Shown here: one piece after another, positions 13,440 through 48,100 of the stretch
How positions within the stretch are numbered: position 1 is the stretch's first letter
Layout of the letters: each line of letters starts with the position of its first letter
DNA from: Candidatus Cloacimonadota bacterium
GTDB taxonomy: Bacteria; Cloacimonadota; Cloacimonadia; Cloacimonadales; TCS61
DNA length: 64,000 bases
Assembly (NCBI GenBank): GCA_021734835.1
Contig: JAIPIH010000005.1
Location: 82,002-146,001 of the forward strand
Direction: 5' to 3'
Made by a program: the position numbers and the translations under genes
Notes under the pieces: model-generated
What the model saw: the letters and a program-made list of their open reading frames with translations, nothing else
The model's database searches: none
Told to the model about the DNA's origin: nothing

Positions 13440-13462
13440 ATATTTTATCTTAGAAGGTGCTT

Positions 13463-14062
13463 ATGTTCAACTCGATTATATTAGCAGCAGGAAGATCTAG
13501 CAGAATGGGAAGTGATAAAGCACTTCTTGAAATTAACGGTAAACCTGCGATTATACACATTCTAAGAAAATTGGAGAAGTTCACTGATAATATCTACATC
13601 GTTCTTGGTGATAATCTGGATGCTGTTAAACAAGAAGTACTCAAAGATTTTGATCCTATAAACATTTCCTTTATTTTTAATGAACTGCATAAAAAGGGTA
13701 TGTTTTCTTCTGTTCAAAAGGGATTTTCCAGCTTAAAAAATTCTGATGCAGTGATATTTCAATTGATCGACCAACCTTTTATTCCTCTAGTAGCTTATAA
13801 AAAATTGATTGAAAATTACGATCCTGAAATTCTGATCACCCAACTTTCTTATACTAAAAATAGTATTAAACATGGAGGACATCCACTGCTATTTGCTCCT
13901 GACTTTAAAGAGATCGTACTTTCATATCCGCTGGAATCTCAACTCAATGAAGTGATCAATGATAATAATGATAACCGAAAATTCATTGAAATTAATCATG
14001 AAGCAATTTTAGATAATTTAAATACTAAAAAGGAATTTTTAAAAAGAATAAGGAATAAATAA
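13463..14062 (+). CDS. MocA/MobA-like molybdenum-cofactor nucleotidyltransferase
   Basis: The protein, about 199 residues, is a nucleotidyltransferase. Its start 'SIILAAGRSSRMGSDKALL' carries the sugar-nucleotide-transferase signature loop, and 'QLIDQPFIP' supplies the acidic motif. MocA and MobA attach CMP or GMP to molybdopterin. The partnership with the following XdhC-like gene (TAATG overlap) favours the MocA/xanthine-dehydrogenase branch. I chose the ATG at 13463 over the in-frame GTG at 13457 because AGAAGG lies 6 bases before the ATG and overlaps the GTG. No molybdenum hydroxylase is encoded in the window, so the client enzyme must be elsewhere. Confidence 0.85.
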   Translation: MFNSIILAAGRSSRMGSDKALLEINGKPAIIHILRKLEKFTDNIYIVLGDNLDAVKQEVLKDFDPINISFIFNELHKKGMFSSVQKGFSSLKNSDAVIFQLIDQPFIPLVAYKKLIENYDPEILITQLSYTKNSIKHGGHPLLFAPDFKEIVLSYPLESQLNEVINDNNDNRKFIEINHEAILDNLNTKKEFLKRIRNK

Positions 14063-14877
14063 TGGAAACAGCAGTATTCAATATTTTACAAAAAGCCGTA
14101 GATAATCAAAAACAAGGCATTCCTTTTGTGATGGCAACTGTAGTGGAAGGTGTAGAAAAAACACCTGGCAGATCAGGTTTCAAGCTAATTGCTTATGAGG
14201 ATAAAACATCGGAAGGTACAGTAGGCGGAGGCAAATTAGAAAGGATGGTCCTTGATAAATGTGAGCAAATTCACAAAACTAAAAAAAATGCTCTCTTAGA
14301 ATTTTTACTTACAGAAACTTCGGAAGGGATCGGCATGATGTGCGGAGGAACTGCCAAAGTATATCTTGAATACTATCCTCCAACCAGGAAAATGTATATT
14401 TTCGGAGCAGGGCATCTTTGTCGAAGCATCGTTCCAATATTTAATTCGATTGGATTTTATTGCGTTGTACTCGATAACAGAGAAGAGTATGGTAACAAGG
14501 AAAGAATACCACTTGCTAAGGAAGTATATGCCGTAGACTATTTTAAATTCTTGGAGACATTCAAACCGGGAGAGAATGATTCAATTGTTATTTTCACACA
14601 TGGACATAAATATGATTTTGATATTTTAGATAAAATATGTGAAAAGAATTTCCAAGTAAAATACATTGGCATGATCGGTTCAAAAATTAAAGCACAAGAT
14701 GCAATTTCACGGATCAGCAAAAAACAATACTTAGGTGATCTGATTACTTCAGTGCATGCCCCTATCGGCTTGAATATAGGAAAAACCACTACTCAGGAGA
14801 TCGCTATTGCTATTACAGCGGAAATATTAGCTGTGTATAATGAAATATTCGATATTTACTCTCTAAGTAAAAAATAG
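14062..14877 (+). CDS. XdhC/CoxI-family molybdenum hydroxylase maturation factor
   Basis: The 271-residue protein has an N-terminal XdhC_CoxI domain with 'TVVEGVEKTPGRSGFK', 'EGTVGGGKLE' and 'MMCGGTAKVYLEY'. A C-terminal Rossmann domain starts 'MYIFGAGHLCRSI' and ends 'HAPIGLNIGKTTTQEIAIAI' (in two parts). XdhC binds molybdenum cofactor, promotes its sulfuration and delivers it to xanthine-dehydrogenase-type enzymes. The ATG overlaps the stop of the MocA-like gene. After the stop there are 75 bases to the Ig-repeat gene, where a separate promoter is likely. Confidence 0.9.
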   Translation: METAVFNILQKAVDNQKQGIPFVMATVVEGVEKTPGRSGFKLIAYEDKTSEGTVGGGKLERMVLDKCEQIHKTKKNALLEFLLTETSEGIGMMCGGTAKVYLEYYPPTRKMYIFGAGHLCRSIVPIFNSIGFYCVVLDNREEYGNKERIPLAKEVYAVDYFKFLETFKPGENDSIVIFTHGHKYDFDILDKICEKNFQVKYIGMIGSKIKAQDAISRISKKQYLGDLITSVHAPIGLNIGKTTTQEIAIAITAEILAVYNEIFDIYSLSKK

Positions 14878-14952: not shown

Positions 14953-17826
14953 ATGAAATATATTCTATCAATATTATTATTAGTATTTATCTCCATTTTA
15001 TTCGCTGATGCGATCCCTCCTTACGTAGTACCATTATACCCAACTGGCGGATCAAGTGGTATTCCGGTAGATTCAGATATTACATTCCACATTTTTGATG
15101 ATGCAGATGGTGTTGATATTAATTCAGTTGAAGTTAATATTGAGGGAATCGTTTATTCAAATGGAGATGAGTCTTTCTTTTACAGTGGAACACCTTTTGA
15201 TTATATTATTACGGTAAATCCTCCCATGAATTTTGCCTTTGATGATCAGATAGATATCCAAATTGATGCTTCCGATCTGGAAATCCCAGCTAATACAATG
15301 ACAACTTACTCTTACTTTTTCCAAACTATCGAAGATCTGCAACCGCCATACATAGGCGGATTAGATCCTCGGGCTGGAGAAGTGAATGTACCGCAGGATA
15401 CTGATATAAGTTTTGTTATTTATGATAGCGGGATAGGTGTAAATCTAACTTCTGTTGTAGTTGAAATACAGGGTGTTACTTATACACATAACAATGGTAA
15501 TTTCTTTTATTCCGGGAACGCTAATGCTTATCAGATCACTATTGATGTGCCGGTAAATTTTGATTTAGCGGAAGTAATTGAAGTAGCAATTGATGCTTCT
15601 GATCTAAATGGAATAGTCATGTCGACCTTTGAATATTCATTTGAGATAATAGATGATATTCAACCGCCTTTTACAGGGGAGTGGCTGCCTTCCCCGGGTG
15701 CAGTTGGAATACCCGTAGATACAAACATCAGCTTTAATATTTATGATAATATTGAAGGTGTAGATATTACCTCAATTATTGTCGATGTACAGGGAGTTCA
15801 ATATAATTATCTTAATACAACTTTTTCTTATCTTGTAATACCAAATGGATATTCTATTACAATCGATCCAAATAGTAATTTCGGTTATGGAGAAATGGTC
15901 AATGTTGAAATTGACGCAGCTGATCTCTCTCAGCCTGCAAATGTAATGAGCACTTTTTCTTACAGCTTCCAATGCATCATCGATATTGCTCCACCTTATA
16001 CCGGGGAATATGACCCTGAACCAGGTGTGCAGGAAGTTCCAATAGATTCTAATATTTCTTTTCATGTCTATGATGACGCGCTCGGAGTTGATATAAACAC
16101 ACTGCTAGTAGATATTGAAGGTGTACAATATTCAGTTGCTAATGGTAATCTTTCATATTCAGGTATGTCTGCTAACTACCTTGTTTCTATAAACCCCACA
16201 GAAAATTTTGATTTTGCACAGATCATAGATATCCAAATTGATGTTGCTGATCTGGCTTCTCCGGCAAATTATCTTTCAGGTTTTGCTTATTCTTTTCAAT
16301 GTGTGAATGACCAGGCAACGCCATATTTAACTGACTTCGAACCCCAACCTTACTCTATAAATAATCCCTTAAATACCACTATCTCGTTTCATGTTCACGA
16401 TGATGGGTTTGGAGTCGATATAAACAATGTAACTGTGAATGTTCAGGGAATTAATTACTCATTAACTAATGGGAACTTGTTTTATAGTGGAGAAATAGAT
16501 AACTATCTTATAATTGTTGATCCAGTGGAAAATTTTTCTTCCGGTGATACAGTCTATGTTGCGATCAATGCAACAGATCTAGCTACTCCGGCTAATGTAA
16601 TGGGAACCTACAGCTACTCATTTGAATGTGCAATAATCGACACTCAACCACCTTTTATCTGGCAGCCTTTTCCTGCTAACGGTGCTGTGAATGTCTCCAT
16701 TAATACACTAATAAGCTGTTATATTCTTGATAGTGGGAGCAGCGTAGATTCTACAACGATCGAGGTGAATGTGAATAGTCAGCAAATTGAAGATTTCACA
16801 TTAGAAAATGTAACTTTTATGGGTAGCTCAGGATTTATCATTACGTATCAACCTTATGTTCCGTTCCAATATAATGAATATGTAACTGTTGAAATAACAG
16901 CTGCAGATCTGGAAGTTATTCCCAATGTTCTTAGTGATGCCTCTTTCTTTTTTGTTTGTGAGGAGAATCAACCTCCCACAATTGATCTACCCGATAGTTT
17001 AGTATGTTTTGAAGATGAAATTATCATCGAAAATTTCAGTTTATATATCACTGATCCTGAAAATGATGAACCATTTTTAGATTCTACAGTCAGCAATAAT
17101 CTGGATATCAGTATAAATGGATATATGGTTACAATACAACCGCATCTAAACTGGAACGGTTCTGAGAATATTGGTTTCATCATCAGAGATGATCAGGGCT
17201 TCATGCTGGCAAGTGATTATACTATTGTAAAAGTAATAGGAGTAAATGATCCGCCTTCTTTCGATCTGGATATTTTCCCTGAGTCGATTATTTTTACAGA
17301 GAATACTACCAAAATTGTAGATTTTGAAACGGCAGTGCTCGATCCGGAACAAACATCTTCAGAATTGGCATTGTCAATTAGCGGGAATACTGTGATAAAT
17401 GTCGATATATCTGAATTTATCGTTACTTTTTCTGCTCCTAATAACTGGACTGGCTCTGAGATTTTAACTGTTATCCTGGATGACAATGTATCTCGTATTA
17501 CTTGCTCAGAACAAATCACAGTATCTGTAATACCGGAAATTCCGGATGAAAAAATTACAGTTGAACCTCACACTGTTGATTGGAATGACCAATTTTGTGA
17601 AATCACTATTTATAGTCAGGTAGCTTTGGATAAAATTTCAGGAAAGATTTTCGATAGAAAGGGCAAATTAATTAATAAATTAAACATACAACAATATGGA
17701 GACAATAAACAAGCCAGATGGTATAAAAATGATTTAGATCAAAATTTAGTAGATGGTGGATTTTACATTTATCAAATAAAGATCAATAACAGAATTTTCC
17801 AAGGTAGTATAATTATAGCAAGGTAA
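14953..17826 (+). CDS. large secreted protein with tandem Ig-like repeats, probable surface adhesin
   Basis: The 957-residue protein has a signal peptide (1-19, 'ILFADA'). It carries six Ig-like (SbsA/Big_5-like) repeats spaced about 109 residues apart, starting near residues 21, 130, 237, 346, 455 and 565. Each opens with PPxxxxxxP, has 'DxxISFxxxDxxxGVD' and closes with 'DLxxPANxMxTxSYSFxC'. Two further cadherin-like units follow (~673 and ~766). The final ~85 residues look like a divergent sorting domain ('GKIFDRKGKLINK...DGGFYIYQIKIN...GSIIIAR'). Nothing indicates an enzyme. Its position as first gene of an operon with a PorV-like barrel and a flagellar-type motor suggests a surface fibre or adhesin that is exported or moved by that machine; this is inference. 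Confidence 0.8.
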   Translation: MKYILSILLLVFISILFADAIPPYVVPLYPTGGSSGIPVDSDITFHIFDDADGVDINSVEVNIEGIVYSNGDESFFYSGTPFDYIITVNPPMNFAFDDQIDIQIDASDLEIPANTMTTYSYFFQTIEDLQPPYIGGLDPRAGEVNVPQDTDISFVIYDSGIGVNLTSVVVEIQGVTYTHNNGNFFYSGNANAYQITIDVPVNFDLAEVIEVAIDASDLNGIVMSTFEYSFEIIDDIQPPFTGEWLPSPGAVGIPVDTNISFNIYDNIEGVDITSIIVDVQGVQYNYLNTTFSYLVIPNGYSITIDPNSNFGYGEMVNVEIDAADLSQPANVMSTFSYSFQCIIDIAPPYTGEYDPEPGVQEVPIDSNISFHVYDDALGVDINTLLVDIEGVQYSVANGNLSYSGMSANYLVSINPTENFDFAQIIDIQIDVADLASPANYLSGFAYSFQCVNDQATPYLTDFEPQPYSINNPLNTTISFHVHDDGFGVDINNVTVNVQGINYSLTNGNLFYSGEIDNYLIIVDPVENFSSGDTVYVAINATDLATPANVMGTYSYSFECAIIDTQPPFIWQPFPANGAVNVSINTLISCYILDSGSSVDSTTIEVNVNSQQIEDFTLENVTFMGSSGFIITYQPYVPFQYNEYVTVEITAADLEVIPNVLSDASFFFVCEENQPPTIDLPDSLVCFEDEIIIENFSLYITDPENDEPFLDSTVSNNLDISINGYMVTIQPHLNWNGSENIGFIIRDDQGFMLASDYTIVKVIGVNDPPSFDLDIFPESIIFTENTTKIVDFETAVLDPEQTSSELALSISGNTVINVDISEFIVTFSAPNNWTGSEILTVILDDNVSRITCSEQITVSVIPEIPDEKITVEPHTVDWNDQFCEITIYSQVALDKISGKIFDRKGKLINKLNIQQYGDNKQARWYKNDLDQNLVDGGFYIYQIKINNRIFQGSIIIAR
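15013..16980 (+). repeat. six tandem ~109-residue Ig-like repeats
   Basis: Within the surface-protein gene the units begin near 15013, 15341, 15661, 15989, 16315 and 16645. They share PPY/PPF at the start and a DASDL/DAADL/DVADL strand with 'PAN' near the end. They are about 327 bases long and clearly diverged at the DNA level. Confidence 0.75.
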
Positions 17827-17830
17827 GATA

Positions 17831-19276
17831 ATGAAAATTAAAATTCTCGTTTTTATTCTAATAATATTTCGGATGATTTGTTATGGCTACGATTTCGAAA
17901 ATGGAGGAGTTAGGAATTCAGCTCTGGGAGGAACTGGCATTGCCTCATCCGGTGATATTTCTTCAGCAGTTTGGAATCCTTCCGGTTTAGCACGATTTAA
18001 TTATTTTCAATTGGTTACAGATTCCAGACCCTATTTGATACAGATGGATAATGATAATATTTCGCAAAATTTTGCATATTTATCTATACCGATGAACACG
18101 ATTTCTGGAACATTTGCTTTCACGGGTAGTTCTTTTAATTCAAATGATTATACTGAAGGAAGATTTGGAGTTCATTATGGAACCGATCTGTTCCCTCAAA
18201 AATCTCCGGGAAAATTATTTGCAGGATTGGGTGTATTAGATCATTATATATCTTTTTCTGAGATCAATCAGAGGAAAAACGCTGTTGATCTGGATATCGG
18301 ATTATCCTATACATTGAATAAAAAAATAAAATTCGGCTGTATCCTGGGAAACATATTACGCGCAGATATGGCTTTGGATGAAAACAATGAAGATAAGCTT
18401 CCCATACGTTTAGGATTAGGTGTCGGTATCGGTATTGACAGATTAAATTTTTCCGCAGATCTATTGTTGAAAAAATATCAAAATAGTAATGATCTTGGTT
18501 TCGGGCTTGGATTTGAGTATATTCTGGCAAAGAATCTTCAGCTTCGAATAGGAATGAACAATCATGATATTACTGGCGGATTTGGAGTCCAGGTTTATTC
18601 CAAAAACTGGCAAGGTAATTACTCCGGATCAAAAAGCGAAACAGTAGATTTCAGCTTTCTTCAACTTAGTATAGACTATGCATTTCAATATCCTTTAGGA
18701 GAATCTCATGATAATGGCATCATCCCAATGGGGAATAGTATAGAATCTGATTATGGTGAACATTTCTTTGGTCTTAAAATAGATTTCATTCGATCGCATA
18801 ATACCAGAAAAGAACTTGAAGTATTGTATCCGGATCAATTTGGAGTAAATACCGCAGCTGATACTGTATATATAGAAAAAGTCAGAGTTGATACAGTGTA
18901 TCATACAAGAACAGTTTATGATACCCTAAGAATAGTAGAACAAGTTGTAAATGAACATGAGATAGATGAAAAAGTTCAGGAAAAAACCAAAAAGATCAGA
19001 AAATCGGATCTTGAGAAGATCAATAAAGCAAGTGTTCATTTGATCGCCGCACTGGAATATTATTACTCAGAAGATTATTATAAGGCTATAGATGAATGTA
19101 ATCAAGCTATCAATTTGGCTCCAGATCTATCTTTATCATATATTCGCCTTGCTTCCATCTATTATAGGTTAGGTGATATCGAAGAAGCAATGTATCAATT
19201 ACACAGAGCTGAAAAGATAGATCCGGAAAATGTAGAGATAAAGAAAATGATGAGATTACTTACTGATCAAGAATAA
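17831..19276 (+). CDS. PorV-like outer-membrane beta-barrel with C-terminal TPR tail
   Basis: The 481-residue protein has a signal peptide (1-19). The N-terminus 'GGVRNSALGGTGIASSGD...SAVWNPSGLA' is typical of PorV/PorQ/UPF0164-type barrels related to FadL. Alternating hydrophobic strands run to about residue 320. A linker with repeated 'DTVY' follows (~335-375), then a charged helix and two TPR units (~395-480, 'AIDECNQAINLAPDLS' and 'AMYQLHRAEKIDPENV'). PorV-type proteins escort type IX secretion substrates in Bacteroidota. Here the periplasmic TPR tail could dock to the MotB/FliF-G proteins encoded immediately downstream. It is 4 bases after the Ig-repeat gene and 10 bases before the rotor gene, so it belongs to the same operon. 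Confidence 0.8.
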   Translation: MKIKILVFILIIFRMICYGYDFENGGVRNSALGGTGIASSGDISSAVWNPSGLARFNYFQLVTDSRPYLIQMDNDNISQNFAYLSIPMNTISGTFAFTGSSFNSNDYTEGRFGVHYGTDLFPQKSPGKLFAGLGVLDHYISFSEINQRKNAVDLDIGLSYTLNKKIKFGCILGNILRADMALDENNEDKLPIRLGLGVGIGIDRLNFSADLLLKKYQNSNDLGFGLGFEYILAKNLQLRIGMNNHDITGGFGVQVYSKNWQGNYSGSKSETVDFSFLQLSIDYAFQYPLGESHDNGIIPMGNSIESDYGEHFFGLKIDFIRSHNTRKELEVLYPDQFGVNTAADTVYIEKVRVDTVYHTRTVYDTLRIVEQVVNEHEIDEKVQEKTKKIRKSDLEKINKASVHLIAALEYYYSEDYYKAIDECNQAINLAPDLSLSYIRLASIYYRLGDIEEAMYQLHRAEKIDPENVEIKKMMRLLTDQE

Positions 19277-19286
19277 AGGATATGTT

Positions 19287-20693
19287 ATGAAAAAATTGTC
19301 GTTAACTCTATTACTCTTTTTGATTATTCAACTCTATGCTCAGGATTTTGTTATTGAGACCGTAAAAGAGATCCAGGCTGAAAGGGAACTTGCCGAGTGG
19401 ATTGAAGCAATGCTTTTCCCAATTGTCGGTGAAACTATTGTAATTGCTAATCTTACACTGGATTATCCTGCCAGCAGACTACAGGTCTATGGCTCAACAT
19501 TGGATAGAGAAAAGAGCTTGCCTGGATTACCTATTGCTAAATCAAAATCTGTTATGCCTACGATGATCGATGATCAAGAGACTTATCCTACAATTGTAGC
19601 CAGAAAAGAAATTACTATCTATCTCAAAAAAGATGTTACAGCGGAGATATTACAATTTATTGAACAAAATGTGGCTCTTTGGATGAATATTAATCCTGAG
19701 AAAGGTGATGTTCTGCAAATAAAAAACATTATGGATTTCAAAACCGGTGTAGCAGAAGAAAATACGGAAAAAAAAGTAAATAACTTTCTGTATTTATATT
19801 TAGGATTTGCTTTACTATTGATAATATTCATATCTGTGTTAATTTTAAGATCAGGATTTACTAAGATTAGTAATTCCATGCAGAATATTAATGTAAAAGA
19901 TTTTGAAAAAGCCCTGCAAATTCAAGGTAATATGATCACAGCCGGTAAAGAAACTAGAAATGCAGACTGGGATTTGATAACCTCGAAAAAGCAACCTATT
20001 CCGATACGATTAGTTGATGACAAGAAAGAGATAGATCCTTATGATTTCAGCTTTTTGGAAGAGCTCTCTATACCGAGTTTTACAAAACTTATTGAAAATT
20101 TGAAAACAAGTGATCTTGCACTTATCTTAGCGAACTTGAATTCCAAATTTATAAGTAAATTTTTGAATTCATATCTGGGTGAAACAAATAAGATCATCGA
20201 TGCGATGATGCAGGGTGTAAGTAAAACAAAGAAAGAGATCATCGAACTTAAAAAAATATTACTGTTAAAATTTAACCAGCTGATTGAAGATAATAAATTA
20301 AAAGTAAATAGTCGGCAGGTCCTCATCAACGTACTCAATCAGCTGGATGTGGAAAAAACAAAGAAATATCTGGATCAGATCAATCAAATGGACAGCGGAT
20401 CAGGAACAGAAATGCGACAGTATGTCTTCCTATATTCCGATATAATCAAATTAAAAGAGTATGATATTGAGCAAATTGTTTTATCAACAGACCATGACTT
20501 TCTGGTGAAATTCCTAAAATCTGCTGATAGAGATGTGCAAGATAAATTCTTTAGTAATTTAACCTCACGTGCTTCCTCCATTATTAAAGAGGATATGAAT
20601 TTTTTAGAGCCTCTAGATTTGAATGAACAGGAAAATATTAAGTTTCAAATGCTTATCAAGATCAGAAATATATTAAAATATATTAAGGAATAA
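19287..20693 (+). CDS. membrane-anchored FliF-RBM3/FliG fusion protein (non-flagellar rotor candidate)
   Basis: The 468-residue protein has a signal peptide or first helix (1-18) and a periplasmic domain (~30-152) like the last ring-building motif of FliF. 'LFPIVGETIVIANLTLDY' matches FliF PIVG-type segments and 'NPEKGDVLQIKNIMDF' matches the FliF end 'ERGDxVxVxxMxF'. A transmembrane helix (~167-188) follows, then a cytoplasmic part (~250-468) like FliG middle and C-terminal domains. The FliG_C torque region aligns without gaps: Lys411, Arg428, Glu435 and Asp436 fall at E. coli FliG Lys264, Arg281, Asp288 and Asp289, while Asp444 replaces Arg297. The FliM-binding EHPQ motif is absent. The gene is followed 2 bases later by motA. 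I read it as a one-piece MS-ring plus rotor protein. The alignment was done by eye; the fold call is strong, the function is inferred. Confidence 0.85.
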   Translation: MKKLSLTLLLFLIIQLYAQDFVIETVKEIQAERELAEWIEAMLFPIVGETIVIANLTLDYPASRLQVYGSTLDREKSLPGLPIAKSKSVMPTMIDDQETYPTIVARKEITIYLKKDVTAEILQFIEQNVALWMNINPEKGDVLQIKNIMDFKTGVAEENTEKKVNNFLYLYLGFALLLIIFISVLILRSGFTKISNSMQNINVKDFEKALQIQGNMITAGKETRNADWDLITSKKQPIPIRLVDDKKEIDPYDFSFLEELSIPSFTKLIENLKTSDLALILANLNSKFISKFLNSYLGETNKIIDAMMQGVSKTKKEIIELKKILLLKFNQLIEDNKLKVNSRQVLINVLNQLDVEKTKKYLDQINQMDSGSGTEMRQYVFLYSDIIKLKEYDIEQIVLSTDHDFLVKFLKSADRDVQDKFFSNLTSRASSIIKEDMNFLEPLDLNEQENIKFQMLIKIRNILKYIKE

Positions 20694-20695
20694 AT

Positions 20696-21433
20696 ATGAA
20701 ATTATCTGTTATTATAGGTTTTTTATTAGGATTTGGCATTATTATATCAGTCATTTTTATCAAACAGGAACCATCTTTATATCTTAACTGGTCAGCTGTG
20801 GTTATCACTTTGGGAGGGACTATTTCTGCTGTTGTCATTTATTTTTCTCCCCAGGCTTTAAAGAATGCCTGGTTTGCGATAATCAACATTTTCAAAGAGA
20901 AACAATATGCTGAAATGTATTTGATAGAGCTATTGGTGGATATTAGCAAACAATCCAAAAAAACCAGCTTTAAAAGTATTATCGAAAAAGGATCAGTTAA
21001 AATTATTCCTTTTCTGCTTAAAGGGATTACCCTCGTTACAGATGGAGAAGATATAGAGCATATTGATGAAGTTATGTCACGTGACAGCAGATCAATCACA
21101 GAAAAGAATATCATTGCTGAAAGAGTTTTTCGTATAGCCGGTAGTTTTGCTCCTTTGTTCGGAATGATGGGAACAGTAATTGGCTTGATCGCAATGTTGA
21201 ACAAGGTTAAGGATCCGGCTGCTATACCCGCAGCAATGGGTTTGGCACTTGTTACAACACTGTACGGTCTAATCCTGGCTGCCTTAGTTTTTAAACCTCT
21301 ATCCGGTAAAATCAGAGATAAAAATAATACAGATACAAGAGCAAGAGAGATTATCATTGCCGGAGTGATATTAATTAAGAAAAATGAAAACTCACATAAA
21401 ATTAAAGAAAAATTGCTGGGATATTTAAATTGA
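20696..21433 (+). CDS. motA: MotA-family stator protein
   Basis: The 245-residue protein has four membrane segments (~3-21, ~31-50, ~147-168, ~178-200) and a large cytoplasmic loop (~55-140) between the second and third. Both conserved prolines are present: Pro153 in 'FAPLFGMMGT' and Pro201 in 'LVFKPLSGK'. 'DPAAIPAAMGLALVTTLYG' is typical of MotA/PomA and not of ExbB/TolQ. MotA surrounds MotB, conducts ions and pushes on FliG. Here the only FliG-like partner is the fusion protein encoded 2 bases upstream, and motB overlaps its 3' end by 4 bases (TTGA). Thr160 and Thr187/188 resemble PomA sodium-site threonines, so the coupling ion is open. Confidence 0.93.
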   Translation: MKLSVIIGFLLGFGIIISVIFIKQEPSLYLNWSAVVITLGGTISAVVIYFSPQALKNAWFAIINIFKEKQYAEMYLIELLVDISKQSKKTSFKSIIEKGSVKIIPFLLKGITLVTDGEDIEHIDEVMSRDSRSITEKNIIAERVFRIAGSFAPLFGMMGTVIGLIAMLNKVKDPAAIPAAMGLALVTTLYGLILAALVFKPLSGKIRDKNNTDTRAREIIIAGVILIKKNENSHKIKEKLLGYLN

Positions 21434-22089
21434 TAACAGAAGATAAATTGGCCAGCAGCCTACCTGCTAAACAGAGCAGGATACAAGACCTCAGTGACGA
21501 GGTTAATGAAAATCAGAATCTCCTGGATGTAATGATCCCTTATGCAGATCTGATGACTCTTCTACTGGTTTTCTTTGTATTTTTCTATATTACAATGGAT
21601 TATGAAAAAAATCGTTTGATAATCGATCAGAATAAACAAATCGTAGAGCAAAACGAACGATTGATGGAGCTTGCCAGGCTAGATACACTTTTAGAAATGA
21701 ATGAGCAGTGTGTAACGATACCAGGTGAAGTGTTATTCAATGCAGGTGAAGCTCTTTTAAAATGGGAGTCATTAAGAACATTGGCCCAAGTTGCTAGAAA
21801 TATTCATGTTAAGATCAAAGGTGAACCGGGCTGGCAGGTCAGAGTAGAAGGACACACAGATAATTTACCGATCTTAAGCAGTACTTATGCTTCCAATTGG
21901 GAGCTCTCTACAGCCAGAGCTCTTAATGTTGTAAAATTTTTTATCGATAATAATTTTTTTCCGCCTGAACAAATGCAGGCTATGGGTTATGGTGAATTCA
22001 AACCGTTGGTTCCTAATGAAACATTCTCTAACCGGAAAAAGAATAATAGAGTAGAGATCAGATTGATAAATAGTTACAGGAGAGATTGA
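21430..22089 (+). CDS. motB: MotB-family stator protein with OmpA peptidoglycan-binding domain
   Basis: The 219-residue protein starts at a TTG that overlaps the motA stop, with GGGA upstream. A cytoplasmic N-terminus (~1-33) is followed by one transmembrane helix 'PYADLMTLLLVFFVFFY' with the essential ion-binding Asp40. A charged linker (~58-90) comes next, then an OmpA_C domain (~115-215) with 'VEGHTDNLPI', 'NWELSTARA' and 'RKKNNRVEIRL'. It anchors the stator to the cell wall. The Asp in the helix and the PYAD context match true MotB and not TolR/ExbD. The start of the next gene overlaps its stop (TGATG), so it is translationally coupled on both sides. Confidence 0.93.
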   Translation: MITEDKLASSLPAKQSRIQDLSDEVNENQNLLDVMIPYADLMTLLLVFFVFFYITMDYEKNRLIIDQNKQIVEQNERLMELARLDTLLEMNEQCVTIPGEVLFNAGEALLKWESLRTLAQVARNIHVKIKGEPGWQVRVEGHTDNLPILSSTYASNWELSTARALNVVKFFIDNNFFPPEQMQAMGYGEFKPLVPNETFSNRKKNNRVEIRLINSYRRD

Positions 22090-22988
22090 TGGAAGCAACC
22101 CTAACCTTAGTAAAAGAGCTGATAGATTCACTTTACAATTCTCCTGTTGCCTTCAAGATCGTTCATACTTTAATCTGGCTACTTATACTCTGGTTGATTA
22201 ATTTAATTACTGTTAAACTGATCAACAAAAAAATATCAGGTTTAAAAACTCAATACCATTGGCGAAAATTAATAAATGTTATAACGATTATGATTGCAAT
22301 TGTCATTTTAATCAGGATTTGGTTCCAGGGAACTCAATCCCTGATAACTTATTTAGGACTGCTTTCTGCAGGAATAGCAATTGCTTTAAAAGATGTTTTG
22401 GCAAATCTGGTAGGCTGGCTTTATATAATTACCAGAAGACCTTTCAAAGTTGGAGATAGAATTCAAATCGGAGAGCACTCAGGTGATGTGATAGATCAAA
22501 GTTTCTTTGAATTTACATTATTAGAAATCAATAATTGGGTTCAGGCCGATCAAAGTACAGGCAGATTGATTCATATTCCAAATGGTAAAGTATTTTATCA
22601 GGAATTAGCAAATTATGATGAAGGTTTTAAATATCTGTGGAATGAAATCTCTGTGGTTATTACATTTGAAAGTGATTGGCAGAAAGCAAAAAAAATATTA
22701 TTGGAAGTTGTTAACGATAAGGGTGAGCATTTATCTAAAACAGTGGAAAATCAAGTAAAAAGAGCTGCTAGAAAATATATGATCTATTATAAAAATCTAA
22801 CTCCTATAGTTTATACTAGTGTTGTTGAAAATGGAGTAAAATTAACAATTCGTCATTTGTGTGAAACCAGAAAAAGGAGAGGATATACCGAAGCCATTTG
22901 GGAAGATGTTTTAGTACGTTTCTCCAAGCAGAAGGACATTACACTTGCTTATCCAACAACCAGATTTTATAAGAATTCAGCAGAATAA
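22089..22988 (+). CDS. MscS-family mechanosensitive channel
   Basis: The protein, 299 residues, has three N-terminal membrane helices (~20-42, ~62-82, ~85-118). The pore helix and hinge 'LLSAGIAIALKDVLANLVGW' is typical of MscS TM3 and is followed by 'RRPFKVGDRIQIGEHSGDV'. A beta domain and an alpha/beta C-terminal domain follow. The family releases small solutes when membrane tension rises. I use the ATG at 22089, which overlaps the motB stop and has AGGAGA upstream; an in-frame TTG one codon earlier is less likely. Being the last gene of the rotor/stator operon is unusual and may mean it serves that machine, or it may be a passenger. It converges with pyrG across 15 bases. Confidence 0.92.
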   Translation: MEATLTLVKELIDSLYNSPVAFKIVHTLIWLLILWLINLITVKLINKKISGLKTQYHWRKLINVITIMIAIVILIRIWFQGTQSLITYLGLLSAGIAIALKDVLANLVGWLYIITRRPFKVGDRIQIGEHSGDVIDQSFFEFTLLEINNWVQADQSTGRLIHIPNGKVFYQELANYDEGFKYLWNEISVVITFESDWQKAKKILLEVVNDKGEHLSKTVENQVKRAARKYMIYYKNLTPIVYTSVVENGVKLTIRHLCETRKRRGYTEAIWEDVLVRFSKQKDITLAYPTTRFYKNSAE

Positions 22989-36582: not shown

Positions 36583-39500
36583 TTATTTGATCAAAATCAT
36601 TTTCTTTGCTTTTGCCGATTTATTAGAATTTAACTGATAAAAATAAACACCTGAACTTACTTTGCGATTCCTTTCATCCGTTCCATCCCAATAAGTGTAA
36701 TATTCACCTGTTTGTTTGAAATCATTTACAAGTGTTTTAACATACTGTCCGCTAGCATTATAAATTTTTATCGAGATCTTTCCGGCCTGAGGAACTTTGT
36801 AATCTATTTTAGTAAATGGGTTAAATGGGTTCGGATAATTTTGGCTAAGAGAGAGTTTTTCCACTGGCGGAATGTTAGCATAGACCTCCATAGTTATCGG
36901 AATATTAAGGATTTGACCAATATCGGTAGTTATTTTGATAACTGCTACGTAGATATCTGGAGTTAAATCATCACTGCAGAAAGTTATTGTATTATAAACA
37001 ATTCCGCCTGATGGGATAATGCCGGATGGATTTTCAAGTGAAAGCCAGTTAACTGGGGAATCAACTATTGTAAAAAGTTGCGAAGTATTTTTCACGCTGC
37101 CATCAATTTCACTAATTCTCAAGATACAATATTCTGAAGGTGGTCCTGGCACATTATATACATAGGAGCCAGTATTAGAGGCATTTTCCTCCAACAAATT
37201 CCAGGAGAATCCATTATTTGTAGAAATTTCAATTTTCACATTATCATAAATTCCGGTCTCTTGCCAGCGTATTGTATCTATTGTTCCATAGGATAATATA
37301 GTGTTCTGATTTGGATGTGTGATATTAAAAGCAGAAATACAAAAAACACTGTCAGAGACATCATAAACGCTATTATCGAGAGTTGATACCTTAATTATAC
37401 AATCATCCGAAAGCGGTCCGTCAAAAATATAAGGGAATGCTCCGTTGTTATCTGCTGATGCGGCAATAGTTTCCAAATCTTGTCCACCTTGTCTTGATAA
37501 AAGGAGTTTTACAAATTCCGCATTTCCATATTTATCCCATTTTATCGTATCTTGAAGAGATGGAACTACTGTCTCTCCACCATTTGGATAAGTTATCCAG
37601 AAATAATTATCAGTTGTAGGATTTACTACGAAAGAGCCGCTAACCTGGTGGGGAGCCTCTCCGGACCCATCACCTTGAATAGCCCAAGCAATGTTCACAG
37701 GTGATACTTGTTCTTCATCTATTGTAACATTAACTATAATCGCAACAGCAAATGTTGGAGCAATACTAACTCCGGGTTGATATCCCCAACTGACTTCCGC
37801 ACCATCTCCGGTCTCGTTATTCCAGCTTAAATCTGAAACATCTGAAGCGCTGTTAACATGGAATCCGGGTGGAAAATCTATTGTAATACCGTTTACTGCT
37901 TCTCCATCAATATCGTTGTGGATAAGATAGAAAAGAAAATTCATCGGTTCGATCGGGATGTATGTATTAGTCATATTAAAGATCATAGTATTCGCGATAC
38001 TTCTGGAAAATTCTTCATTAAACTCAAGTTGTGCTCCTGTCGGTATTTTAGCAAAATGAGAAATCTCCGCAGAATACGAAATCTCAGAAGATCCTAACGA
38101 ATTGGAGATCATCATATCTGCCGAGAAAGTGGAATCCGAAGGAACAGAAAAAATAAAATTATCAGGTAGAATACTGATGAAAGGCAGATCGTATTGTCCA
38201 TTTTGATAGAATATTATAGCTGTTTCACTCTGTAGCTGATGAACTGTAGTGGGATATACGTCAGCAAAAGTGATCAATAAACCTTCATTTTGTTGGAAGT
38301 TTTCCAAACCTACAGTAGCAAAATTGTCTTCCTGGTCGGTATTGTGTATTTCTTTATATTGGAATTTGATAAGTTTTTTTTTAGTTGGTGTAAAATAGTA
38401 TTCCGGATCATAAAGTATAACCTGGAAAATCTCAGCGTCGCCATTATGAAGATTTACAAAATCCGACCATTCAATGATCATATAATTATTGTCTTCATCA
38501 TATTTCACATATATTCTACCATCCTCTAAGTTATCCCAAAAAGGTGCTATCATTCCTGACGGCCCCACACCTGAAGGGATATTGCGATTCCGATGAAAAA
38601 CCAGCGGTGTGGTCGCCACGGAGATATATCCTTCGGAACAAATGGAAATTTGGTCATAAAAAGTACCAAAGTAGTTAAATTGGAAAGGTAGCGGAATAAC
38701 TTTAGTAAAGCCGTCTGGGATGGTATGATCGGAATCAAGTTGTAGACCGTCACCACCATAATTCGGATCTATCTCAATCCAGTTATATTCTGGTATCTCA
38801 AAATCACCATTATCGGATGATTCAACTGCATAGTAACCATTTAAGGAATATGTTATGCTAGTGGAATCAATTATTCCAATTGGAATTTCGAAATTAAGTT
38901 GTTGTAAAGTTTCGCCATCATCTGTGATATCCAGGTTGAATTGACCTATTTCTCCGGAATTAACATTTCCCGGAAAAACTGTAAAAAATCCCAACGCAGA
39001 TTCTTGTTGCTGGATATCAGTAAAATTGCAGGCAGAATTTATGACCTCCACATTATCATTTGTGCAGGTTAGAAGCGCTTCAAAATCTCCACTTGGAAAG
39101 TTGCCGATATTTGTCAGCTGAATTGCCATATCTGTTTCTTGATTTTGGATAAGACAATTAGATTCATTTTGTATAATAATATCTGATACTGATAACTTGG
39201 GGGATATGATTTCAGACTGAATCAGAAATTCATGTTCATTTTCGTTCGAGACAACTTCCAAGAAAAGGTTGATCTCAGTACCATCCGACCAAGATGGCGA
39301 TAGCTGTAAATTGATCTGATCTGATAAACTTTGTCCGGTTTCCAGTAAGTCAACATTGATAGTGCTGTTTGAAATGTTAATATGATCATCAGAACAAACG
39401 AAAGTTAAAATTAAATTTTCATAAGTTGCTTGGCTGATATTTGTGATAGTAAAATATAAATTTACTATGCTTCCTGAAATTAATTGCTCGGAAAAATAAT

Positions 39501-41460
39501 AGTCTTCTAAGATAATATCTGTCTCAGATGAAATCATCAGATTACCAGATTCAGGTATATAGCCGTAATTTGAGGCTGTAATTTCATAAGATCCTTCCGG
39601 AAGATCTATCGGGATCACAGCTAAACCTTCTGTATCGGTTATTCCGGTGGTTATCAGGCTGTCCTCTGATGTTAAAGCAATAGTAAATCCAGAAGGATCA
39701 TCGGCAGATGTTTCCACTCTAATTTCAATAAAATTTTCTGAGCTTGTGATCTGAGTATTATAAACGACATCTATTTCTTTGGGAATATCAGTAAAAATTT
39801 GAAGTCCCGGATCACCCAGGAGATTATAAACATAAAAATAAAATTGATCCGAATTCAGAGAATTTCCCCAGCTATGAGAATTTGGGTAATTATTATATAG
39901 TTCCATTTTACCACGTAACAACATTTCTCCACAGCGGAATAGTCCTTCCTGTGTAATTCCCTGATAAACACCAATAGCATAAGCATTATTAAACCAGGTT
40001 TTTGTATCATGTTCACTCGGGCCAATAAATCCGATGGCTCCCCGAGGAACTGCAGGACTACCGCTTAAAACCCATTTTTCACCAAAACTAGAAGCTGCTT
40101 GCTCGGTAGCAAAATCACCGCCGCCACAAGTTATACTGGTTATCATAGGAAGCATGAAGCCATTATCCAATAGATCAATATCCTCGAGAGTGAACATTGA
40201 GCCGTTCGAACCTCCCCAGTTAGTAGGTGAACCGGTTCCGCGGTAACAAACAAAAGATTCCCCAGCACTAATACTGCTTGCCAGCTGAGTTTGTCCCTGC
40301 TGCCAGGGAGCGATAAATGTATCTACCACAGAATATTCAAAGTTTAACAGTTTATTGCGTATTTCCATCAGAGTCTCGCGTTGAGAATAACCATTCCAAT
40401 CTTGTACAAAACCAACCATTAAGGCACGATTCTGCCACTGGATCTCTGTGAAGGGATTTTGTTCATAGTTGATAATTTTTGAAATTATGGTTTGAAGTTC
40501 AGACTGACTTTGCACAGAAATCCTACCCAACAAAATATCAGGAAAATAGTCATCTCCTGCAAGTAAAGTGTAATTATGATCTGTGACATTCCAGGGCGAT
40601 AAATAACCTTCAACATAAAAAGCCGGGCATTGATAATTCCCGGAGACATCACCAACCAGAACTACAAATTCAGGTGGAATATCCCAGGAGTCGTAAGCAT
40701 CCTGTAAATAGGCTTTAATTTCATCTGCAGTTGATCCAGTTTCGCTGAGTAAAGCAAGTTTGGTATTGAAACCTAATTTCTCTTTCCAGCGGAGTAAAGG
40801 CTGTAAAACTGCAGCCGCATTATCAGGTGCAATAAACAGATAACTCCCTCCCTGAAAAGTTCTGTTTGCGGAAGTACCAAATATTTTTTCCGAAGTTAAT
40901 TTTGTAAAAATTGAATTTACCGGCTGCACGATCAGAGGATTTCTGGTATCGGAATTCTCGATTGTAAACTCAAATTCGATATCTTTTATCAAGCGGATTT
41001 CATTTCTGGCCGGATTATATTGAATAGGGGAGATAGTGATTTGAGAAAATCTAATTTCCCGCATTATTGCAGGTTTGCCAATATTTATAATGTTCTTCGG
41101 AAACCACTCATCTCTAGTATAAACATCTTCCTGCTCAGTATTAAAACTTAGTGCAAGTTTATTCGGAATCGTAAAACTATCGTAGCTGAAATCGGTTTTT
41201 ACACACTTGTAATTACCGATTGACGGTAGCGAAACCAGTTTTGTGTAAACAGGCAATGTGAAAAATTCAGATAACGGATTATTAAGGCAGTCATCAATGA
41301 AGACCTGATCGTAAGGCTCATTATTAATATCTTTGGTTACTAATTCTTTTACATTAAAATCCCCTGAGATAAAAAGGGAATTATTAACTTTAGCCAATTC
41401 TAAGCCATTGAGTAATACAAAAAATCCGCTTAAGAAGAAAATGGCAATGAACTTCCTCAT
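36583..41460 (-). CDS. gingipain-like (C25) secreted protein, long paralog, catalytic His replaced
   Basis: The 1625-residue protein has a signal peptide (1-19), a C25-type propeptide (~20-195) and a gingipain-like domain (~205-560). CARDB/Ig-like modules follow (~570-870), then a module shared with the paralog (~880-1110, 'PFQFNYFGTFYDQISICSEGYIS' in part) and an insertion. The insertion contains two Kre9/KNH-like repeats (~1290-1500, 'ITYPNGGETV' and 'ITHPNQNTIL'). The end is the sorting domain 'SGVYFYQLNSNKSAKAKKMILIK' (read as two parts). The nucleophile Cys445 in 'ITCGGGDF' is kept, but the site of gingipain His211, in a 'YxGHGS' motif, reads 'YRGTGS' with Thr409. It may be a pseudo-peptidase or use another base. 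It is the middle gene of the operon, 10 bases after the paralog. Confidence 0.88.
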   Translation of the reverse strand: MRKFIAIFFLSGFFVLLNGLELAKVNNSLFISGDFNVKELVTKDINNEPYDQVFIDDCLNNPLSEFFTLPVYTKLVSLPSIGNYKCVKTDFSYDSFTIPNKLALSFNTEQEDVYTRDEWFPKNIINIGKPAIMREIRFSQITISPIQYNPARNEIRLIKDIEFEFTIENSDTRNPLIVQPVNSIFTKLTSEKIFGTSANRTFQGGSYLFIAPDNAAAVLQPLLRWKEKLGFNTKLALLSETGSTADEIKAYLQDAYDSWDIPPEFVVLVGDVSGNYQCPAFYVEGYLSPWNVTDHNYTLLAGDDYFPDILLGRISVQSQSELQTIISKIINYEQNPFTEIQWQNRALMVGFVQDWNGYSQRETLMEIRNKLLNFEYSVVDTFIAPWQQGQTQLASSISAGESFVCYRGTGSPTNWGGSNGSMFTLEDIDLLDNGFMLPMITSITCGGGDFATEQAASSFGEKWVLSGSPAVPRGAIGFIGPSEHDTKTWFNNAYAIGVYQGITQEGLFRCGEMLLRGKMELYNNYPNSHSWGNSLNSDQFYFYVYNLLGDPGLQIFTDIPKEIDVVYNTQITSSENFIEIRVETSADDPSGFTIALTSEDSLITTGITDTEGLAVIPIDLPEGSYEITASNYGYIPESGNLMISSETDIILEDYYFSEQLISGSIVNLYFTITNISQATYENLILTFVCSDDHINISNSTINVDLLETGQSLSDQINLQLSPSWSDGTEINLFLEVVSNENEHEFLIQSEIISPKLSVSDIIIQNESNCLIQNQETDMAIQLTNIGNFPSGDFEALLTCTNDNVEVINSACNFTDIQQQESALGFFTVFPGNVNSGEIGQFNLDITDDGETLQQLNFEIPIGIIDSTSITYSLNGYYAVESSDNGDFEIPEYNWIEIDPNYGGDGLQLDSDHTIPDGFTKVIPLPFQFNYFGTFYDQISICSEGYISVATTPLVFHRNRNIPSGVGPSGMIAPFWDNLEDGRIYVKYDEDNNYMIIEWSDFVNLHNGDAEIFQVILYDPEYYFTPTKKKLIKFQYKEIHNTDQEDNFATVGLENFQQNEGLLITFADVYPTTVHQLQSETAIIFYQNGQYDLPFISILPDNFIFSVPSDSTFSADMMISNSLGSSEISYSAEISHFAKIPTGAQLEFNEEFSRSIANTMIFNMTNTYIPIEPMNFLFYLIHNDIDGEAVNGITIDFPPGFHVNSASDVSDLSWNNETGDGAEVSWGYQPGVSIAPTFAVAIIVNVTIDEEQVSPVNIAWAIQGDGSGEAPHQVSGSFVVNPTTDNYFWITYPNGGETVVPSLQDTIKWDKYGNAEFVKLLLSRQGGQDLETIAASADNNGAFPYIFDGPLSDDCIIKVSTLDNSVYDVSDSVFCISAFNITHPNQNTILSYGTIDTIRWQETGIYDNVKIEISTNNGFSWNLLEENASNTGSYVYNVPGPPSEYCILRISEIDGSVKNTSQLFTIVDSPVNWLSLENPSGIIPSGGIVYNTITFCSDDLTPDIYVAVIKITTDIGQILNIPITMEVYANIPPVEKLSLSQNYPNPFNPFTKIDYKVPQAGKISIKIYNASGQYVKTLVNDFKQTGEYYTYWDGTDERNRKVSSGVYFYQLNSNKSAKAKKMILIK

Positions 41461-45174: not shown

Positions 45175-48100
45175 CTATTTTAATAGTAAACACTTTTTGG
45201 TATCAACATATTTTCCATTCCTTTCCATTCGGTAGAAATACACTCCGGAAGATACTTTTTTCCCAGAATCATTAGTTCCATCCCAGATTATTTCATGTTG
45301 ACCGGCAGTGAAAACTTCATCAATCAGCTTTTTAACTTTCTGACCTTTAACATTATAGATGGAAATGTCAATTGTGGCTTCGTTCTCTGCAAGAGAGAAT
45401 TGGATGGTAGTTTCAGGATTAAAAGGATTAGGATAGTTTACTTTTAATTCAGCTTTAATACAACTTGGAGTATAGTTTTCCTCTGCAATAACGGGATTTT
45501 CTTCATAGCCTGTGTGTGTGAATTGTACTTCGGTTGGAATAATAGGCATTTCATCAGTTCTAATTTGTAAATAATGGTAATCGTTAGGATTGATCACAGA
45601 ATCGGAATTTTGAGTTTTTTCCTGCCAGTCTTCCCATTCGATAAGACCGATATTATCGAACCAGGCGTAAGAATCTCCAGAGGTGGGAGGATCATTATTA
45701 GCTACAATATCAAAATAATTCGTATTTTCATCTACATTTATCTCAGCCCAATAATAAGTCCAGTCTGTATCACCACTAACTAATTCGAAGCTATCAATTG
45801 CTAATGGAGCACCTCCAGTTCTATTATAGTAGTATCTGGCTTGTACTGTAGCACCCTGGCAATTTTCTGTTTTAAGATAACCATGTACAGAATATTTCCC
45901 GGTTGATGATCTTTTCATACGGTTTTCAAAATTAGTGATAATATTATATCCGTTTCCGGCATTCTGATGAATACATAATGATCTTTGACCGGCGTAAAAT
46001 TCACTTTCATCGTACCATTCATCATTACTATTCACATTCCAAATACTAGCGCCTTCATCTTCGTAGTTTCCAAACCAGACAAGTTCACGTCCCACTCTGA
46101 ATTCAAAATTATTACCTGGATTAATGATGTCTATACTTGATACATCACCCCACAGTGGCAGGGTAATTATTTGCGAATGGTATTCACTTCCCTCCTGTGT
46201 GAAGTTCAATCCTTCATTATATTGCTCATTGTCGATCAGCATATTTAATGTATCGATAATAATATTTGCTTCAATTTCATCCTGATCAATACTAAGATAA
46301 GTATTTAACTCCCTTGATCTCATTTTAATATAGTCTAAAATGTGAAGCCCTAACTCACCAATAGCAATTTGGGGTATGTAATCGTCAATAAAAACTGGTT
46401 TAATACTATATGAATCAAATCCGTTTTCATCAATTTCTGCATTGAGGATCATGGAAGGAAAAGTTTCAAAATAACTTAGATCAAATATGAAATTTCCTAA
46501 TGAATGAGCTATCAATTTTCCGTTATAAATTTCTAATCCCTGAATAATGTGGGGATGATGACAAATGACTATATCAGCGCCTGAATCTACCATATGATGA
46601 CGGATTTCAATATCCCACATATGCGGAACATCAATCCGAGGAGTATAATCTTCATCTTCAGCAAAGTCTTTCTCATCCCAGCCGGCAAAAATGTCCATCG
46701 AATCATAGTTTGCTCCGGGAGCAGTTGAATACTCACTTCCGGAATGAGTCTCCACTATGATCAGATCAGAATTGTCTTCAACCGCTGCGATCTGTTCCAT
46801 GATGTAATAGGGTGTCATATAGGCAAATCCGAATTTATTGAATCCGGCTTGTAGATAAGGCTGATAATTGTTATATTGCCCTGTTCTGTCACTCGATCTT
46901 AAAAATGCCAGATTAACACCTTTTTTGGAAATATATTGCGGTTTGTAGGCTTCGTAGGAATTTTCTCCTGCTCCTGAATATGATATTCCATATTGATCAA
47001 GTGTGTTCATAGTTTCCTGCATTCCTTCCAGCATATAATCACTAACATGATTATTAGCCATACTCACAAGATCTATACCGGCAAAGGCTAGTCCCGCAGC
47101 ATTTTCCGGAGAACCTTTGAAATATATAGTTTTTGTAGGATGATGAATATTATGATTTGTGAGGGGACATTCCAGGTTGGCAACTGTAATATCAGCATTA
47201 TCTCCCAGGATTGACAAAGTAGGTTCGAAAATTGCCTCTACTCCTTGAGTAGGTATTATACCGCCAGTTCCTTCATAACCTCTTGCCAGCATTATATCGC
47301 CCACAAAATTAATTTTTAGCGGGAAAGTACTATCTCCTTCCTCTACATCAATCTGACATTGCGAATAACCGCAGTAATTAGTAGCGTCCGTTACCTGCAG
47401 ATGAACAGTATAAGTATGGTCATCTTCTACTAAGAAGGAATGAGTTGGATTTTGTATTGTAGCTGTAGAATCATCACCAAACAACCAGAGAAACTCATGC
47501 TCTTCACTGTCCGGATCGGTTACTTCACTGTAAAATTGTACATCAACACTACGCAGATTTTCGGAATTTCTAAAGATGTTACCGATGTCGTAACTGATCT
47601 CTACATGCGGTGCTATCGGCAGGTCTTCTGTAATATCTACAAGATTATCAAAATACATAAGACCGGAGCCGCCATCGTTATCATTGATAAAAATTAATTG
47701 ATTGATCTCAGGTAAGTATTCATACCAGGCCATCCAATCATCGGCAATTGGAAGTTGAAAGATATTCCAAACGTCTTCCGCAAAAGCACCTTGATAAACA
47801 GGGATCCATTCCTCAATATTAAGAACTTCATATCCATCCAAAGAATAAAACAGCTCATTTTCGCCATCTCCAAATCCGATACCCTGTATCTCACCTTTAT
47901 CCTGAATGAAACAAGCTATTTGCCAGACTGTTTCCGATTCCAGCAAAACAGGCTCGATATTCTCAACTTTCCAGGTATTGCCAAAGATCATTAAAGCAAA
48001 TTCAGAAGAATCATCATAAGTATTCTCGGTAGTAATTTCCCAGGAATCAGGCTGAATATCCTGTCCCGGATAAGAAGAAAAAATTATCTCACCCGATTCA

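Follow-up and report, generated by a model that had tools for sequence, protein, structure and literature searches.

Can the rotor and stator of the flagellar motor serve a machine other than a flagellum? The question is raised by five adjacent genes in a 64,000-nucleotide stretch of DNA from a Candidatus Cloacimonadota bacterium (the window; G000:C65:82002-146001, that is, positions 82,002 to 146,001 of contig JAIPIH010000005.1 in assembly GCA_021734835.1). The genome of 2.67 Mb comprises 71 contigs and is 86.9% complete and 3.9% contaminated. The five genes form one module encoding, in order, a protein of immunoglobulin-like (Ig) repeats, an outer-membrane barrel with tetratricopeptide repeats (barrel-TPR), a fusion of the third ring-building motif (RBM3) of FliF to FliG, MotA and MotB. 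We propose, with a probability of roughly 0.47, that they make up a rotary envelope motor in which MotAB would turn a ring of fusion subunits and the ring would move the barrel together with a predicted fibre. The features of the module, numbered from the first letter of the window, are as follows.

14953..17826, forward strand: secreted Ig-repeat (Big_5) protein of 957 residues (Pfam Big_5, 9e-16), proposed surface fibre or adhesin
17530..17823, forward strand: C-terminal domain of the Ig-repeat protein, like the CHU_C and type IX secretion system (T9SS) sorting domains
17831..19276, forward strand: PorV/PorQ (FadL)-type outer-membrane barrel with C-terminal TPR, 481 residues, proposed fibre carrier and periplasmic contact
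19287..20693, forward strand: FliF-RBM3/FliG fusion of 468 residues, proposed rotor subunit on the basis of profile matches and predicted folds
19782..19856, forward strand: predicted single transmembrane helix of the fusion, about residues 166-190 (helix 166-199 in the model; hydrophobic run)
19887..20030, forward strand: predicted disordered linker, residues 201-248 (predicted local distance difference test, pLDDT, below 50), replacing the FliF tail and FliG_N
20040..20678, forward strand: FliG middle and C domains, residues 252-464
20568..20594, forward strand: torque helix with R428, E435 and D436, equivalent to E. coli R281, D288 and D289
20696..21433, forward strand: MotA of 245 residues, proposed stator (NCBIfam MotP 1.2e-45 and PomA 4.1e-42, both under their equivalog cut-offs)
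21430..22089, forward strand: MotB of 219 residues with Asp40 and an OmpA domain, its linker shorter than in flagellar MotB

Only 4 bases separate the Ig gene from the barrel-TPR gene and 10 the latter from the fusion, and the fusion, motA and motB are likewise tightly packed.

A FliF-FliG fusion as candidate rotor

The initial annotation of this locus described the last three genes as a rotor and stator pair reduced to a FliF-RBM3/FliG fusion with its own MotA and MotB. The motifs and gene order on which it drew were confirmed: both the FliF-like and the FliG-like part of the fusion gave significant profile matches and are predicted to adopt RBM3 and FliG folds, and the prolines of MotA and the Asp and OmpA domain of MotB are in place. 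Three genes suffice as a description of the motor and fall short as one of the system, to which the barrel-TPR and the secreted Ig-repeat protein also belong. The interpretation as a non-flagellar motor is supported, and neither of the two outcomes named as refuting it occurred: FliF and FliG profiles do match, and among the flagellar families searched no gene set wanting its own fliF, fliG and motAB turned up in the window's genome. Its rotation and the work that it does are what we infer.

In FliF the RBM3 domain precedes the second transmembrane helix, and its fold is predicted in the fusion; RBM1, RBM2 and the two transmembrane helices of FliF are not found there, the approximately 130 periplasmic residues amounting to one ring-building motif. 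The N-terminal helix (residues 2-17) reads as a signal peptide. When the Cloacimonadota fusions were aligned with FliF by hhalign the match was weak (47%, E 1.9e-4, columns 122-194). Most of the invariant columns lie within residues 24-143 (15 rows). On the cytoplasmic side, the FliG middle domain is present, as is the C domain with its torque helix (FliG_C, 5.9e-16). The N domain of FliG, which binds the FliF tail, is not in the fusion, and the FliG profile match begins at FliG column 138.

Among 32 aligned Cloacimonadota fusions, which include close relatives, the torque helix carries Arg at the R281 position in 32/32 and an acidic residue at both the D288 and the D289 position in 32/32. Two other positions, which we take to be K264 and R297 in E. 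coli FliG numbering, are Lys in 16/32 and Arg in 0/32, respectively. The EHPQ motif is missing from the FliG part, as first annotated (His in 0/32 rows, Gln in 2/32). Ring formation by a fused chain is supported by artificial FliF-FliG fusions, engineered flagellar proteins that assemble into rings (PMC6079021, PMC11481574; here and below, papers are cited for the portions of their text that were available).

MotA and MotB as candidate stator

Module MotA matches flagellar MotA/PomA along its whole length, and both conserved prolines are kept in 17/17 module MotAs. Its highest NCBIfam bit scores are to MotP and then PomA, which hints at Na+ and is no test of it. The available literature names the residue pairs R90/D288-D289 and E98/R281; MotA column 88 is Lys or Arg in 14 of the 17 module proteins and His in the other 3, and column 97, next to the column of the rotor-contact glutamate, is acidic in 7/17. 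The ion-binding Asp of MotB is kept in 17/18 module proteins, the remaining one (L049) having Asn. From this Asp to the EGHT motif the distance is 76-107 residues in the 18 module MotBs and 130-133 in nine flagellar MotBs; it was measurable in 9/12 of the latter, a motif not being found in the other three, and the short or broken MotBs of L044 and L046 were left out of the residue and linker counts.

A MotA tree within the phylum, built from 17 module rows, 10 flagellar rows and 2 others, sets the flagellar MotAs apart by a branch of 2.37 changes per column (support 99/100); the tree does not show the module rows as one clade. Two further MotA/ExbB-family genes of the window's own genome (on contigs C41 and C57) lie far away in this tree.

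The proposed surface fibre and its barrel

The predicted fibre is variable in length: relatives of the Ig-repeat protein range from 772 to at least 2815 residues, the longest reaching the edge of its DNA stretch. Of three that were scanned, one has FG-GAP repeats and another Big_9/Cadherin-like repeats. For 12 of the 19 loci in which an Ig gene adjoins the barrel gene the C-terminal domain was analysed, and CHU_C matched it in 12/12 at E<=1 (best 2.2e-9), the member at L054 exceeding the family cut-off (27.4 of 27).

The barrel-TPR protein matches the PorV family (NF033709 PorV_fam, 8.3e-12, under its cut-off), and no PorP family is among its 14 NCBIfam matches at E<=1. Its model has 14 strands followed by helices at residues 375-480 (pLDDT 73, predicted TM-score, pTM, 0.59). 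The top Foldseek hit is chain F of 8gl6, a T9SS complex with the bound C-terminal domain of RemA (2.4e-9), and FadL follows. We take this chain to be PorV. In barrels of this topology the C-terminus faces the periplasm. A Pfam scan matched no OmpA-type peptidoglycan-binding domain on the barrel-TPR.

The T9SS translocon family SprA_N was detected in the window's own genome, in 107/124 genomes of the phylum and in 70/70 of those of high quality, and in 0/14 control genomes. Nearly universal SprA_N (107/124) stands against GldM, which was detected in 0/124 genomes of the phylum, its control being silent (no control genome matched either).

Gene order and co-occurrence in the phylum

Named relatives of the locus are found in seven Cloacimonadota metagenome-assembled genomes (MAGs) at 67-71% identity, two of them Candidatus Tenebribacter, and the order from the Ig gene to the gene after motB is the same in all seven as far as the contigs extend. 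The synteny of the trio is conserved more widely: motA lies directly 3' of the fusion in 22/22 loci with a visible gene, and motB is next after motA in 20/20 visible loci, being short or broken in L044 and L046. Directly upstream of the fusion the barrel-TPR gene is found in 18/26 loci with that side visible; it lies nearby on the opposite strand in L054 and downstream of the fusion in L055. Wherever a neighbour of the barrel gene is visible, the window included, the Ig gene adjoins it (19/19 loci).

Profile searches of 124 phylum genomes, each scoring at most 13 candidates per genome, found the fusion in 24, some copies being cut by contig ends. The fusion profile matched 36 genomes altogether; 11 matched only over about 248-462 (flagellar FliG) and one, G081, weakly over 340-423, and these 12 were not counted. 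The barrel-TPR profile at E<=1e-30 also matched 24/124 genomes, 21 of them shared with the fusion, an overlap with hypergeometric odds below 1e-13 when uncorrected for phylogeny. All six mismatched genomes (G052, G053, G063, G074, G077 and G090) are 61-86% complete. Within the 70 genomes whose completeness is 90% or more and contamination 5% or less, both sets consist of the same 13 genomes, from eight genera. In G106 the barrel-TPR is present on another contig than the fusion. One genome of the window's genus, G093 (98% complete), has neither fusion nor barrel-TPR, a joint loss.

A divergent fusion copy occurs in L050, L051, L053 and L057 (genomes G077, G100, G075 and G073, respectively), and in the last three genomes it is a second copy. 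It adjoins pyrG in L050, L053 and L057 and does not in L051. Three genes come after it at L050 and L051, namely motA, motB and one for a protein of 376 residues (TPR/YfiO-like in L051), and neither an Ig nor a barrel gene adjoins.

Flagellar genes

The window's own genome gave no match to FlhA (PF00771), FliM (PF02154), FliF_C (PF08345), FliG_M (PF14841) or Flagellin_N (PF00669), and its only FliG_C match is the fusion itself. The earlier statement that flagellar genes are absent thus stands for the export, switch and filament families FlhA, FliM and flagellin in a genome 86.9% complete; the search did not extend to hook and rod genes, FliN or FliP. The FlhA, FliM and flagellin profiles each matched in 4/14 control genomes. 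Within the phylum, FlhA was found in 12/124 genomes, FliM in 12/124, FliF_C in 10/124 and Flagellin_N in 11/124, and 23 of the 24 fusion genomes had no FlhA, FliM or Flagellin_N match.

Twelve genomes have both FlhA and FliM, and only G055 among them also has the fusion. It carries a separate motA-motB pair just before fliM (L066), as well as five flagellin hits; therefore the module is not its flagellar stator. G055 is 81% complete and is missing fliF, fliG and fliI jointly; these genes lie close together in its relatives, which makes an assembly gap likely.

A separate observation concerns G052 (83% complete), which has a flagellin-type match (G052:C20:323-739) and a partial barrel-TPR match and in which FlhA, FliM and the fusion were not matched.

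A related fusion in Elusimicrobiota

Protein searches recovered the fusion with an added TPR in proteins labelled Elusimicrobiota (P0048 and relatives, 192 matches). Those of the 120 matches listed that bear a taxon name are called Elusimicrobia/Elusimicrobiota, Elusimicrobiales and Endomicrobia/Endomicrobiia, with one Omnitrophica, and in nearly all listed proteins of the Elusimicrobiota type TPR matches stand beside the FliG domains. These searches scored only about 8000 candidates, those with the most words in common, so that the occurrence found outside the phylum is a minimum.

The sequences of nine Elusimicrobiota-type proteins were inspected and 14 were aligned. The two families align with each other across residues 28-462 (99.9%, E 2e-33), and the 14 Elusimicrobiota rows match FliF over the whole of RBM3 (90%, E 1.4e-6); one protein, P0084, exceeds the cut-off of Pfam YscJ_FliF_C (9.2e-6). 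A motif in the RBM3 insert, LP[GS]xP, is found in 29/32 Cloacimonadota and 13/14 Elusimicrobiota rows and is absent from 8 FliF rows. The D288 position is acidic in 14/14 Elusimicrobiota rows. A scan of viral contigs with the Elusimicrobiota alignment found no relative.

Proposed machine

We suggest that RBM3 would build a small periplasmic ring, as in the MS ring, with each fusion subunit spanning the inner membrane once and holding its FliG middle and C domains in the cytoplasm as an arm. MotA, anchored to peptidoglycan through MotB, would push against the torque helix. Fusion into one chain would make the FliF tail, FliG_N, FliM and FliN unnecessary. Because the FliF-tail/FliG_N joint and the FliM site are both removed, the motor would be expected to have no switch. 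The barrel's TPR arm, in the periplasm, may contact the RBM3 ring or its insert, so that rotation would drag the barrel in the outer membrane along with the Ig fibre, bound through its C-terminal domain. Least secure is the link between ring and barrel, with the least certain contact; it rests on the operon, on co-occurrence and on a TPR that would face the periplasm in the usual topology. As in SprB/SprF gliding, the output would be expected to be surface movement or a force exerted on an adhesin, a flagellar-type motor taking the role of GldLM.

The broader claim is that a three-protein rotor and stator (RBM3-FliG, MotA and MotB), having neither C-ring nor export gate, rod or filament, drives an outer-membrane barrel and type IX-secreted fibre in Cloacimonadota and has a sister form with a cytoplasmic TPR in Elusimicrobiota. 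We offer it tentatively, its chances being somewhat short of even.

Comparison with known systems

With the flagellar motor core the module shares its domain folds, the FliG torque residues, a full-length MotA and a MotB with Asp and OmpA domain. It differs in joining RBM3 and FliG in one chain with a single ring-building motif and neither FliG_N nor EHPQ, in the shorter linker of MotB and the rotor-contact glutamate not kept in MotA, and in a genome without FliM, FlhA, flagellin or separate FliF matches. The closest precedent is the FliF-FliG fusion of Chlamydiaceae, likewise natural and in a bacterium not thought to be flagellated (PMC4768692). That paper describes an RBM2-like part and a further RBM-like stretch (predicted structure), without a SpoIIIAG-like domain, joined to the FliG middle domain, and the available text names only FliF, FliL and FlhA as flagellar genes of these bacteria. 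By this description the module, with RBM3, the FliG middle and C domains, MotA and MotB, is set apart.

The likeness on the surface side is to gliding in Bacteroidota, powered by GldLM, in which a large repetitive protein with a T9SS C-terminal domain is encoded beside a FadL-family barrel that the motor is meant to pull (PMC9143113, PMC12635249). SprB binds SprF, encoded alongside, and PG1035 binds PorP, all of these barrels being of the FadL family (PMC9143113); SprF rides a moving track in gliding (PMC12635249). In the module, by contrast, the motor is MotAB with FliG, the barrel is PorV/PorQ-like with a TPR of its own, and GldM was undetected with its control silent. The PorE-PorP-PG1035 system of Porphyromonas also pairs a barrel that binds type B cargo with a TPR-bearing partner, and is thought to anchor the cargo, not to move it (PMC9143113); in the module barrel and TPR are one chain, on which no OmpA-type domain was matched.

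No description of the module was found in the literature searched, preprints and most subscription papers being outside its scope. The main text of a 2025 MotAB phylogeny, as far as available, does not mention Cloacimonadota or Elusimicrobia, and the only mentions of "motility" and "flagell" in the available text of the Tenebribacter MAG paper concern Omnitrophota. A phylum-wide paper, also available in part, reports that flagellar and pilus genes are enriched in digester genomes.

Evidence against the proposed rotary motor

Several results weigh against a rotary motor that moves a fibre. Some concern the motor itself. The single-chain model of the fusion has a pTM of 0.33, and the ring, its rotation, any motility or other output and the barrel-ring contact are what we infer from the evidence above. 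MotA column 96 is acidic in 0/17 module rows and Glu in the flagellar MotA of G055; as the flagellar glutamate is not kept, a charge pair known between stator and rotor may have been lost. In the Elusimicrobiota fusions the R281 position is Arg in 0/14 rows and the D289 position acidic in only 7/14, and the evidence on these fusions comes from protein sequences.

Others concern the link to barrel and fibre. At 8/26 loci no barrel gene lies directly upstream (L047, L050-L054, L056 and L057), and the co-occurrence, besides being uncorrected for phylogeny, was obtained with a barrel-TPR profile built from 13 module members. The C-terminal domain of the window's own Ig-repeat protein matches CHU_C at 0.0041, under the cut-off, and across the 12 C-termini the type B family TIGR04131 and the type A family TIGR04183 match equally, in 8/12 each. 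The barrel is closer to PorV/PorQ than to PorP/SprF, and under its family cut-off, and SprB export is independent of PorV (PMC9143113). Cargo held by barrels paired with PorE, which bears TPRs, is postulated in the same paper to be non-mobile. This passage and the loss of the MotA glutamate slightly lowered our odds for both the five-gene motor and the three-protein machine.

Two side observations also count against it. At L052 and L054 (genomes G106 and G051) the trio lies beside Poly_export/SLBB and LytR genes, and L054 also has a Wzz/AAA gene. In G055, which alone combines the module with flagellar genes, the module MotB (L049:216-797) has Asn instead of Asp, and this stator may be inactive or changed.

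Alternative explanations

The motor may be real and yet serve to export its own Ig fibre or put it in place, perhaps other type IX cargo too, replacing GldLM/PorLM as energiser and not moving the fibre afterwards. Cargo and barrel genes lie within the operon, the T9SS translocon is widespread while GldM matched 0/124 genomes (with no control matched), and a barrel with a TPR partner is postulated to retain proteins that do not move (PMC9143113), all of which would suit such a role. A general T9SS energiser was rejected, however, with SprA_N in 107/124 genomes and the module in 24/124, and we regard the export explanation, in its narrower form, as unlikely.

A second alternative dispenses with rotation: MotAB and the fusion would act as a transmitter or tether between the membranes, like TolQRA or ExbBD-TonB, the fusion forming single stalks. 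The MotA superfamily has non-flagellar members (PMC12505986), the MotB linker is short, the rotor-contact glutamate is not kept and ring assembly of the fusion is a prediction. The domains that have been kept, however, serve ring building (RBM3) and stator contact (the torque helix), and MotA fits flagellar MotA/PomA over its full length; this explanation appears quite unlikely.

It is improbable that the output is envelope or polysaccharide work, the motor driving or sensing capsule or slime export or surface contact. The neighbourhoods of L052 and L054 point that way, as does the MscS gene that follows the module in the window's genus, but these are two loci only, from genomes (G106 and G051) that also hold a barrel-TPR gene, and MscS is found there in two genera only. 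That the genes are left over by chance from a flagellum since lost, or serve one encoded elsewhere in the genome, was rejected as highly improbable: FliF, FliG, MotA and MotB are flagellar families and 12 phylum genomes have flagellar genes, but FlhA, FliM, FliF_C and flagellin gave no match in the window's genome (86.9% complete) and FlhA, FliM and Flagellin_N none in 23/24 fusion genomes, invariant columns are concentrated at residues 24-143, the long branch of the stator tree separates module from flagellar MotA, and the fusion occurs in a second phylum.

Significance of a possible motor without a flagellum

All parts of the proposed rotary motor come from known families, and the machine that they make up is without counterpart in the literature searched. 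If the proposal is true, it would be a MotAB/FliG rotary motor without the surrounding flagellum, showing how small a natural rotor-stator pair can be and making torque without FliM/FliN testable with three proteins. It would bear on whether the flagellar motor could function ahead of the export gate and filament or independently of them. Type IX-secreted surface fibres would then have another kind of motor besides the known one, and these bacteria, largely uncultured, a candidate means of moving or exerting force.

Neighbouring genes

One further gene overlaps the end of motB.

22086..22988, forward strand: MscS-type channel (MS_channel_2nd, 2.1e-13)

This channel was found at the module in the window, L001, L003, L004, L005 and L040, which represent the window's genus and one more genus only, and it was rejected as a core part of the module. 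Promoters and terminators around the operon showed no excess over shuffled sequence. Upstream of the module, MobA-like and XdhC genes (13457-14877 of the window) probably form a separate neighbouring unit; they adjoin the module in two genera, that of the window and another represented by L041 and L048. Elsewhere in the window, two large secreted proteins encoded on the reverse strand (36583-41460 and 45175-48189) have a YPNPFNP motif in their tails, which differ from the tail of the module's Ig-repeat protein.

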